From Halorubrum halophilum (GTDB lineage Archaea > Halobacteriota > Halobacteria > Halobacteriales > Haloferacaceae), in contig NZ_BBJP01000057.1 of the NCBI RefSeq assembly GCF_000739595.1, positions 1 to 50,529 on the forward strand: a stretch of DNA of 50,529 bases. The letters run 5' to 3'. This document shows, piece by piece, positions 21,930-24,293 of this stretch (position 1 is the first letter of the stretch; each line of letters starts with the position of its first letter). The translations under genes were made by a program, and so were the position numbers. The notes under the pieces are model-generated. The model had not been told where the DNA came from. It saw nothing but the letters and a program-made list of their open reading frames with translations, and did not search any database.

Positions 21930-23132
21930 GTGACCCGCGACGCCGGCCCGACACCGCCCTCCGAACGCATCGTCAGCCTCGACGCGCTCCGGGGGCTCGC
22001 CCTGCTCGGCATCCTCCTGATCAACGTCTGGTCGTTCTCGATGCCCGAGCAGACGCTCCTGAACCCGAACGTCTACGGCGACTTCACGGGCGCGAACTAC
22101 TGGGCGTGGGCCGTCAGCCACGTGTTCGGACAGAACAAGTTCATCACCCTGTTCTCGGCGCTGTTCGGCGCGGGGATCCTGCTGTTCGTCGACAGCAAGA
22201 AGGAGAAGGGACAAGACGCGGTGCGGCTCCACTACCGGCGGACCGCGATCCTCATCGCGATCGGCCTCATGCACGCGTACCTGCTGTGGTACGGCGACAT
22301 CCTCGTCGCGTACGGGCTGACCGCGCTGGTGGTCGTCGCGTTCCGGAACCTCGAAGCCCGACAGCTCGCCGGACTGAGCGCCGTCTTCCTGCTGTTCCTC
22401 CCCGTGACGGAGCTCCTCGCCGCGGTCAGCCTCGGCGGCGACGCGATCGCTTCCCAGTGGGCGCCGTCGGAGGCCGCGATCCGCCAGCAGGTCGCGGCGT
22501 ACCGCGGCGGGTGGGTCGAACAGCTCGATCACCGCGTCTCCTCGTCAATCGGTCGGCAGACGACCGGCTACATCGGCGGGAGCTTCTGGCAGGTCGGCGG
22601 CACCATGCTCCTCGGCATGGCGCTGTACCGCTGGGGCGTGTTGACCGGCGAGCGGTCGGCGGCCCTGTACCGCCGGCTCGTCGCGCTCGGCGTCGTCGGC
22701 CTCGCGATCACCGTCGCCGGCGTCGTCTACATCGAGGCCAACGACTGGAGCGCCGGCGCCGCGCTGTACTGGCGACAGTTCATCTACGTCGGCAGCTTCC
22801 CGCTCGCCGGCGGCTACCTCGGGCTCGTGATGTTGTACGCCCGTCGGCGACCGGACGGCCCCGTGACTCGCGGACTCGCCGCGGTCGGCCGGACCGCGTT
22901 CACGAACTACCTGCTCCAGACGGCCATCGCCACCACCGTCTTCTACGGGCACGGCCTCGGGCTGTTCGGTTCCGTCAGCCGCGTCGAACAGCTCGGGTTC
23001 GTCGTCGCCGTCTGGGCGGTGCAGATCGTCCTGTCGGTGCTGTGGCTGCGGCGCTTCCGGTTCGGTCCCGTCGAGTGGGTGTGGCGGACGCTCACGTACG
23101 GGGAGACACAGCCGATGCGAAATCCGGAATGA
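21930..23132 (+). CDS. DUF418 domain-containing multi-pass membrane protein
   Basis: The 400-residue membrane protein of the DUF418 (YeiB-like) family has no known function. The N-terminus carries the family start SERIVSLDALRGLALLGILL, also found in related heparan-N-acetyltransferase-like acyltransferase membrane proteins. About ten hydrophobic segments follow. The DUF418 core lies in the second half: YRWGVLTGERSAALYRRLVA, then TRGLAAVGRTAFTNYLLQTA, with the conserved R-x-A-FTNYL motif. The start is GTG at 21930 (MTRDAGPTPPSERIV). It lies 90 bp after the oxidoreductase gene on the same strand. Confidence 0.9.
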   Translation: MTRDAGPTPPSERIVSLDALRGLALLGILLINVWSFSMPEQTLLNPNVYGDFTGANYWAWAVSHVFGQNKFITLFSALFGAGILLFVDSKKEKGQDAVRLHYRRTAILIAIGLMHAYLLWYGDILVAYGLTALVVVAFRNLEARQLAGLSAVFLLFLPVTELLAAVSLGGDAIASQWAPSEAAIRQQVAAYRGGWVEQLDHRVSSSIGRQTTGYIGGSFWQVGGTMLLGMALYRWGVLTGERSAALYRRLVALGVVGLAITVAGVVYIEANDWSAGAALYWRQFIYVGSFPLAGGYLGLVMLYARRRPDGPVTRGLAAVGRTAFTNYLLQTAIATTVFYGHGLGLFGSVSRVEQLGFVVAVWAVQIVLSVLWLRRFRFGPVEWVWRTLTYGETQPMRNPE

Positions 23133-23202
23133 GTGGACTGCGGACGTGTTGACGGATTCGATCGGAACTCTGTCATTGCTTTCCGGCGAACCTCAGTCAG
23201 TC

Positions 23203-23560
23203 GTTTATAAATGGTTGCTGTGAGCGAGGCGGTAAAGACCTCCAAAGCCCCAGCCGTGAGGACGGCGCACGCTCGCTGTCGTTCGAAAGGCGCTTCGCGC
23301 CTTTCGTGATGACGAGACGCCTCCGGCGTCTCGAACCACGCGCTTCGGTCGCTCGCGTTGCTCGCTCCCTCCAGTGCTTACGTCGCCTGCGCCGTCCTCA
23401 CGGCTGCCCCTTTGAGTCCCACCCAACTGCAACCGTCCCGCACCTCACACCTCCCCAGCCTCGTCGGTCGCCCGTCGCTTCGCTCGGGCGACCGACTCCC
23501 TCGCGCGTGCTCCTCGCGCCCGTTGGGCGCTCGGAGGCGCGCGCCACCGCACCTCGTTTA
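23203..23560. repeat. Hairpin-rich intergenic element between DUF418 and FAH genes
   Basis: A gene-free 440-bp stretch that begins with a TATA-like CGTTTATAAATGG at about 23202-23214. It contains a perfect 19-bp inverted repeat (23251-23269 with 23388-23406, CAGCCGTGAGGACGGCGCA and its complement), a 10-bp hairpin at 23284-23306, a 9-bp hairpin at 23313-23333, and a 12-bp hairpin at 23463-23496 (GTCGGTCGCCCG). It ends before a TTTAAAAG near 23559, which probably serves neither neighbour. I recall similar GACTCAAAGGGGCAGCCG-type sequences scattered in Halorubrum genomes. It could be a repeat family, a MITE-like element or a structured RNA gene. Confidence 0.55.
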
Positions 23561-23573
23561 AAAGTGTTCGCGG

Positions 23574-24293
23574 TTACTCTCCGTCGACGACCGTGTTCGA
23601 CAGCGTCCCGACGCCCTCGTAAGTGATCTCGACGCGCTCGCCGGGCTCGACGAGCCCCGGATTCGCCGGGCTCCCGAAGGCGATGCAGTCGCCGGGCTCG
23701 AAGGTGAACCGCTTCGAGAGGTACGAGACGATCTCGTGCGGCCCGAACAGCATCAGCTCGGTGTTGGCGTCCTGCCGCTGTTCCCCGCCGACGGTCGTCG
23801 AGATGTCGAGGTTCCTCGGGTCCACGTCGGTCTCGATCCACGGCCCGAGCGGGGCGGATCCGTCGAACGCCTTGCGCGCGGTCCGGCCCTGCTGGTCCAA
23901 GGCGTCCACGTCGTTCAGGATCGTGTACCCGCGGACGACCTCCGGTACGTCCTCGGGGTCCACGTCGCGGCACCGCTCGTCGATGACGGCGACCAATTCG
24001 CCCGCGTAGGTCAGCTCGTCGGTCCACTCGGGGTACCGAATCGGCTCGCCGTGCGCGAGCAGACTCGCGGGGGGTTTGATGAAGAAGTCCGGCTCCTCGG
24101 GCCGTTCGTACTCCATCTGGTCGAGCGTCTCCGCGTAGTTCCGGCCGACGCAGTAGAGCGCGCTCGGGTCGCAGGGCGGGAGGAGGCGACCGTCGCGGCC
24201 GACCTCGTACCGGCCGTCGTCGGCCACCACGGTTCCGTCCTCGTAGCGCCCCGAAACCGGTCCGTCCGGCGTGAGCAGACGAGCGAGTCGCAT
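23574..24293 (-). CDS. Fumarylacetoacetate hydrolase (FAH) family protein
   Basis: The 239-residue protein of the FAH fold has members that hydrolyse or decarboxylate 2-keto acids with a Mg2+ site. The family core is visible: YCVGRNYAETLDQMEYERPE at about 56-75, FFIKPPASLLAHGEPI at about 79-94, GYTILNDVDALDQQ at about 134-147 and GDCIAFGSPANPGLVEPGER near the end. The metal site normally has an E-x-E pair; here the stretch reads TYAGELVAVI, so the first Glu is Ala while the second and the later Asp are kept. The start MRLARLLTPDGPVSGRYEDG at 24293 is typical of the family. Its own function is not clear. Confidence 0.88.
   Translation of the reverse strand: MRLARLLTPDGPVSGRYEDGTVVADDGRYEVGRDGRLLPPCDPSALYCVGRNYAETLDQMEYERPEEPDFFIKPPASLLAHGEPIRYPEWTDELTYAGELVAVIDERCRDVDPEDVPEVVRGYTILNDVDALDQQGRTARKAFDGSAPLGPWIETDVDPRNLDISTTVGGEQRQDANTELMLFGPHEIVSYLSKRFTFEPGDCIAFGSPANPGLVEPGERVEITYEGVGTLSNTVVDGE

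Follow-up and report, generated by a model that had tools for sequence, protein, structure and literature searches.

A dispersed hairpin element of haloarchaeal chromosomes, probably formerly mobile and kept as a structured RNA

In the contig of Halorubrum halophilum analyzed here (NZ_BBJP01000057.1, 50,529 nucleotides in its whole length, hereafter the window), the stop codons of a plus-strand gene (21930-23132) and a minus-strand gene (23574-24293) face each other across a gap at 23133-23573, and this gap between a convergent pair holds a set of inverted repeats whose nature is the question addressed here. The initial annotation had listed a perfect 19-bp inverted repeat spanning 156 bp and perfect hairpins of 9, 10 and 12 bp, all of which proved exact: the 19-bp arms lie at 23251-23269 and 23388-23406, and the hairpins at 23284-23306 (10 bp), 23313-23333 (9 bp), and 23463-23496 (12 bp). 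Folded as single-stranded RNA, 23203-23420 of the plus strand gave z = -5.85 and 23203-23560 of the minus strand gave z = -7.62; since no shuffle equaled either value, the inverted-repeat stretch is beyond chance. An element had been proposed at 23203-23560, and a copy is indeed present, but the informative strand is the minus strand, on which it reaches to ~23550.

A DNA search with the window element scored 40 copies in this genome and returned further ones in 22 of 22 other Halorubrum genomes searched, with an identity among copies of ~75-88%. Using a covariance model of the element's 5' half (R1), at least 150 copies were found in this genome, a lower bound because 150 candidates were scored, together with 147 in the one-contig relative G042 and 66 in G045. 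Within the order, R1 matches came from 65 of 195 genomes, representing 20 of 66 genera, the named ones including Halorubrum, Haloparvum, Halobellus, and Halorussus, and a single genome of another family contained 88 matches. The dispersed repeat suspected in the initial annotation is thereby borne out: instead of a single copy lacking stem conservation, the nucleotide and covariance searches of this genome and its relatives gave many copies with preserved, covarying stems. The features of the window copy are summarized in Table 1.

Table 1. Features of the window copy and its boundaries, with window positions and the strand on which each feature is read
Feature	Position	Strand	Basis or remark
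Structured core	23239-23550	-	R1 match at 23443-23550, 105.5 bits
Core order, 5' to 3'	23239-23550	-	GCGGTGG - P1 - AGGGA - P2 - GAGGCTGGGGAGGTGTGAGG - GGGACTCAAAGGGG - P3 - GGGGCTTTGGAGG
Stem P1, with conserved GAG/CGA internal loop; bears G-U pairs	23502-23543	-	Anchor extraction, pair counts, alignment
Stem P2, the 12-bp hairpin of the initial annotation	23463-23496	-	Pair counts, alignment
Conserved block CGAGGCTGGGGAGGTGTGAGG, family signature across taxonomic families	23443-23463	-	Copies compared
P3 5' arm, GGG side of the GGG/GGG internal loop; includes right arm of the 19-bp repeat	23388-23414	-	
P3 3' arm, other GGG side; includes left arm of the 19-bp repeat	23243-23269	-	
62-bp nested double hairpin GTCGTTCGA..GTGATGAC..TCGAACCAC, an independent mobile repeat	23278-23339		Breakpoints at query 94/155
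TATA word region (CGTTTATAAATG on the plus strand), 3' boundary of the element	23202-23213		Copies compared
TATA-like CTTTTAAAC, 5' boundary of the element	23556-23564	-	Similar word at a relative's empty site

Between P2 and the long stem P3 stands the invariant block GAGGCTGGGGAGG. Among copies, P2 is exchanged as an entire hairpin and is also altered by paired substitutions, while 151 of 156 copies retain the 5' GGG of the P3 loop, a count in which the 3' GGG formed part of the extraction anchor. Most copies lack query positions 95-154, corresponding to the double hairpin at 23278-23339. This 62-bp unit is dispersed by itself in 16 of 23 genera and is inverted in L223, from another family, and on comparison of the copies it is a separate nested mobile repeat. 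The 9- and 10-bp hairpins, previously counted as parts of a single unit, thus belong to a nested insertion without counterpart in most copies. Across haloarchaea (L223, L244, and others), double hairpins with stems joined by GTGATGAC occur in both orientations, and their stems vary between copies yet remain paired. Further double-hairpin modules stand at several places within the core in L040, L078, L088, L093, L095, L102, L109, and L119, an example being GAGGGACC..GGTCCCTC plus CAGCCGGCGGCGAAGCCGCCGGCGA. At the 3' boundary, many other copies carry a tandem repeat of TATA plus GGCTGGGGCTTTGGAGG; in L013, L014, L025, L037, and others, a unit of TATA plus GGCTGGGGCTTTGGAGGTGTTCACC lies 3' of the core with one or two extra tandem repeats. 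Halorussus-type genomes (L215-L219, L235-L237, L240-L242) have a GTGCGGTCGCGGT-like repeat run after P2 and no obvious P3.

When 30 copies were aligned with MAFFT without regard to structure, 93.9% of the cells were paired and 17 of 25 pairs changed on both sides, giving a covariation score of 0.422, compared with 0.166 for shuffled (0/500) and at most 0.109 for slid alignments. A second alignment of 39 copies, mostly from other genera (including some Haloparvum and Halobellus loci) and fitted to the model, scored 0.488 versus 0.143 for the control. In P3, extracted by anchors, as many as four pair types occur at a single position. The same fold kept under changing sequence suggests that a functional RNA, or else a functional DNA hairpin, is being preserved. 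Selection on RNA tolerates G-U pairs on the RNA strand and does not tolerate A-C, and for this count extraction by flanking anchors only was relied upon because covariance-model alignments exaggerate the G-U skew. With this extraction, P1 contained 96 G-U cells versus 9 A-C cells (16 versus 6 by distinct haplotype, 8 versus 1 in other genera), an excess that points to a minus-strand RNA. The RNA reading has good support at P1; P2 (10 G-U, 12 A-C) and P3 (27 G-U, 16 A-C) show no significant G-U excess, so that DNA-level selection or arm-by-arm repair could maintain these two stems. The skew in P1 could alternatively arise from transcription-linked deamination, which would likewise require transcription of that strand.

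It is somewhat unlikely that the element works as DNA throughout, forming cruciforms or single-strand hairpins that act as binding sites or as substrates of REP/IS200-like transposases, with pairing restored by template switching and no RNA involved. Such a role would suit P2 and P3, which are nearly all Watson-Crick with G-U and A-C counts alike, as well as the swapping of stems as modules and the insertion of small double hairpins at many places. It is at odds with the strong single-strand skew of P1, seen in Halorubrum and in other genera, and with the invariance of the unpaired blocks, including the GGG noted above. The copies in G042 also show neither strand order nor regular spacing, on which grounds an ordered, chromosome-organizing signal was rejected as well.

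If the product is RNA, it might come from a family of trans-acting RNA genes, present in many copies and transcribed from their own promoter, mobility being incidental. Of 142 copies, 88 have a TATA-like word in the 45 nt preceding P1, compared with 0-3 of 142 in control windows, conservation is class-wide, and the viral contigs lack the signature; nevertheless, we consider such a gene family unlikely. Where a TATA box is present in Halorubrum copies, it stands ~13-15 nt before P1, a spacing that places the usual start within P1; the copies read from other genera have no such TATA, and the copies show no orientation preference relative to neighboring genes. In the window, the TATA-like word at the 5' boundary is probably host sequence, because a counterpart stands at the empty site of a relative, and we claim no promoter since a like word is found in this element-less genome. 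The other TATA word, TTTATAAAT (near 23203), placed at the left end in the initial annotation, lies on the 3' side of the minus-strand element, and a single unit with a left-end promoter is not supported.

The window locus has a copy in five relatives, two of them without P3, and the stems have been rewritten at the same site; in G019 the site is empty, with the two gene stop codons near each other and no element. At the L005 locus, intact cores were found in at least five relatives, with differing stem sequences and identical unpaired blocks. Because both loci are filled in relatives, old copies persist and keep folding, and the window copy is such an old one, with worn ends. The L082 copy is absent at the same place in five relatives, whose flanks diverge to the point that clean insertion junctions are unreadable. 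A selfish, neutral repeat, in which pairing persists just through gene conversion of whole hairpins between conserved blocks, would account for stem types common to several copies and for the wholesale differences between orthologous copies. It is nonetheless distinctly improbable, as conversion moves pairs without creating new ones, whereas single P3 positions hold as many as four pair types and the fold holds across families despite independent sequences.

Regarding gene context, 171 classified copies lay in 81 convergent, 66 tandem, and 24 divergent gene pairs, compared with 119, 337, and 151, respectively, among 607 background gaps, and none of the classified copies was inside a called gene. 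This distribution is more in keeping with promoter avoidance than with a fixed 3' signal. That the element terminates transcription of convergent genes or insulates them from each other is very unlikely, for despite the enrichment in convergent gaps the family includes the tandem copies (35 in the same orientation as the genes, 31 opposite) and the divergent ones, and the core itself lacks a U-run.

Evidence on how the copies spread comes from the fuller ones. In these, inner inverted repeats GATCGATAGCGGGAGT, which were not found around the window copy, enclose the core; repeats of this kind (GATCGATAGCGGGAGTRGGT) occur at 107 sites in this genome versus 0 for the reversed control pattern. 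Paired inner repeats enclose 130-662 bp, too short for a transposase, and an autonomous partner bearing them was rejected for this reason. At L084 the pair encloses just 130 bp; the core is missing, and direct repeats of CGATCGCTTATAAA lie on either side of the loss. Beyond the inner repeats, one of two ends, both starting GTTGAAATCC, occurs in many copies; such ends delimit cassettes with differing cargo ORFs, several with exact 8-bp direct repeats. In L105 (G000:C91:129122-129804), IS6-type outer ends, inner repeats, and core occur together in 683 bp, and the 8-mers on either side agree at 7 of 8 positions. The IS6 pattern consists of an 8-bp duplication and GG tips with cTGTt (PMC7986276); ends of this type are present around L105 and sister cassettes, and the window copy is without such terminal inverted repeats. 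A possible target-site duplication, named in the initial annotation as a sign of mobility, is the imperfect 8-bp repeat at one full copy, the window copy having no ends. Because that full copy lies inside IS6-type ends with 8-mers matching 7/8, the family was probably mobilized as a non-autonomous cassette. The non-autonomous element and the structured RNA, originally offered as alternatives, are compatible, and both are supported, by the IS6-type ends of this copy and by the covarying stems. In L171-L179, on contigs C44, C54, C61, C65, C82, C92, and C96 of this genome, IS6-type ends GGCTCTGTTGAAATCC bound small-cargo cassettes whose cargo ORFs differ and whose 8-bp direct repeats are often exact. 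No transposase was recognized by eye among the ORFs of the IS6-type cassettes read.

All 66 R1 matches in G045 lie on one of its three contigs (2.74 of ~3.7 Mb), and the contigs of this genome rich in IS6-type ends (C44, C54, C61, C65, and C96) had no R1 match among the matches listed. A similar stretch was present in only two plasmid records, while fourteen Halorubrum plasmid records had an Orc/Cdc6-like gene and ten had IS6-type ends. Mobile elements are not usually confined to the main chromosome; a simple cause here may be a turnover of secondary replicons that outpaces the movement of so slow a family. A virus or plasmid origin was rejected on the basis of these two records only, the absence of any phage match for the window stretch, and the exact signature being found in 0 viral contigs searched.

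Taken together, we favor with moderate confidence the reading that the copy in the window is old, worn at its ends, and part of a non-autonomous repeat family with IS6-type spread, the core fold of which is kept by selection, most likely as a minus-strand RNA. Fuller copies, some within IS6-type outer ends, would probably have been moved by an IS6-family transposase acting in trans; the ends and direct repeats are observed, and the transposase is postulated from them. Insertion would have occurred mostly downstream of genes, followed by decay of the outer parts, with the core retained and its stems rewritten with pairing preserved, as seen at the loci compared. The kept part would presumably be a folded RNA at transcript ends or a short separate RNA, with the invariant GGCTGGGGAGG block and the GGG/GGG loop as putative binding sites. 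The position of the TATA, where present, speaks against an RNA, because 13-15 nt is too short for the usual archaeal start upstream of P1. We still regard the element as a dispersed and formerly mobile structured one that probably yields an RNA. More tentatively, this could be an undescribed structured RNA class of the Halobacteria, carried as IS6-cassette cargo and later domesticated, with a shared protein partner at the GGCUGGGGAGG block and the GGG/GGG loop and roughly 70-150 copies on each Halorubrum chromosome (66 in G045, 147 in G042). A known RNA family was rejected: at the Rfam gathering score only two tRNAs were found in the window, and a relaxed search of six members gave one sub-threshold match. 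If true, few structured sequences on haloarchaeal chromosomes would match the element in abundance, although it is missing from Rfam, and it would be a test case for a selfish repeat becoming a kept RNA, given stems rewritten at the same locus between sister species with no loss of the fold or the unpaired blocks; gene annotation and the interpretation of RNA-seq would be affected in many intergenic regions of Halorubrum.

No description of this haloarchaeal repeat family was found in the literature searched, and new here are its copy number, spread, main-chromosome restriction, and covariation strength. Bacterial REP/BIME and REPIN sequences are likewise high-copy intergenic palindromic repeats, but as palindromes of 20-40 bp (PMC3733652, PMC3116915), whereas the present family has three stems with invariant internal blocks and, in the genome counted in full, lies on the main chromosome only. 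The PATEs of Haloquadratum are palindromic, transposase-free haloarchaeal repeats as well, resembling IS605 elements in their near-terminal palindromes and lacking terminal inverted repeats (PMC3119063), unlike our fuller copies, which do bear inverted repeats. The small mobile repeats (SMRs) of Haloquadratum walsbyi share with the present family a haloarchaeal host, short length, inverted repeats, the lack of a transposase gene, and frequent location within other mobile elements; the terminal repeats of SMRs are unrelated to known transposons (PMC3119063). SMRs are, however, ~80-110 bp long and commonly >95% alike (PMC3119063), above the ~75-88% of the present family, which is ~310-690 bp in length, covarying, and order-wide. 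IS6-family MITEs (PMC7986276) resemble the one full copy with IS6-type tips and 8-mers matching 7/8, and the sister cassettes with exact 8-bp repeats; in contrast to them, most copies, including that of the window, are without these ends, and the core is unrelated to an IS and outlasts the decaying ends.
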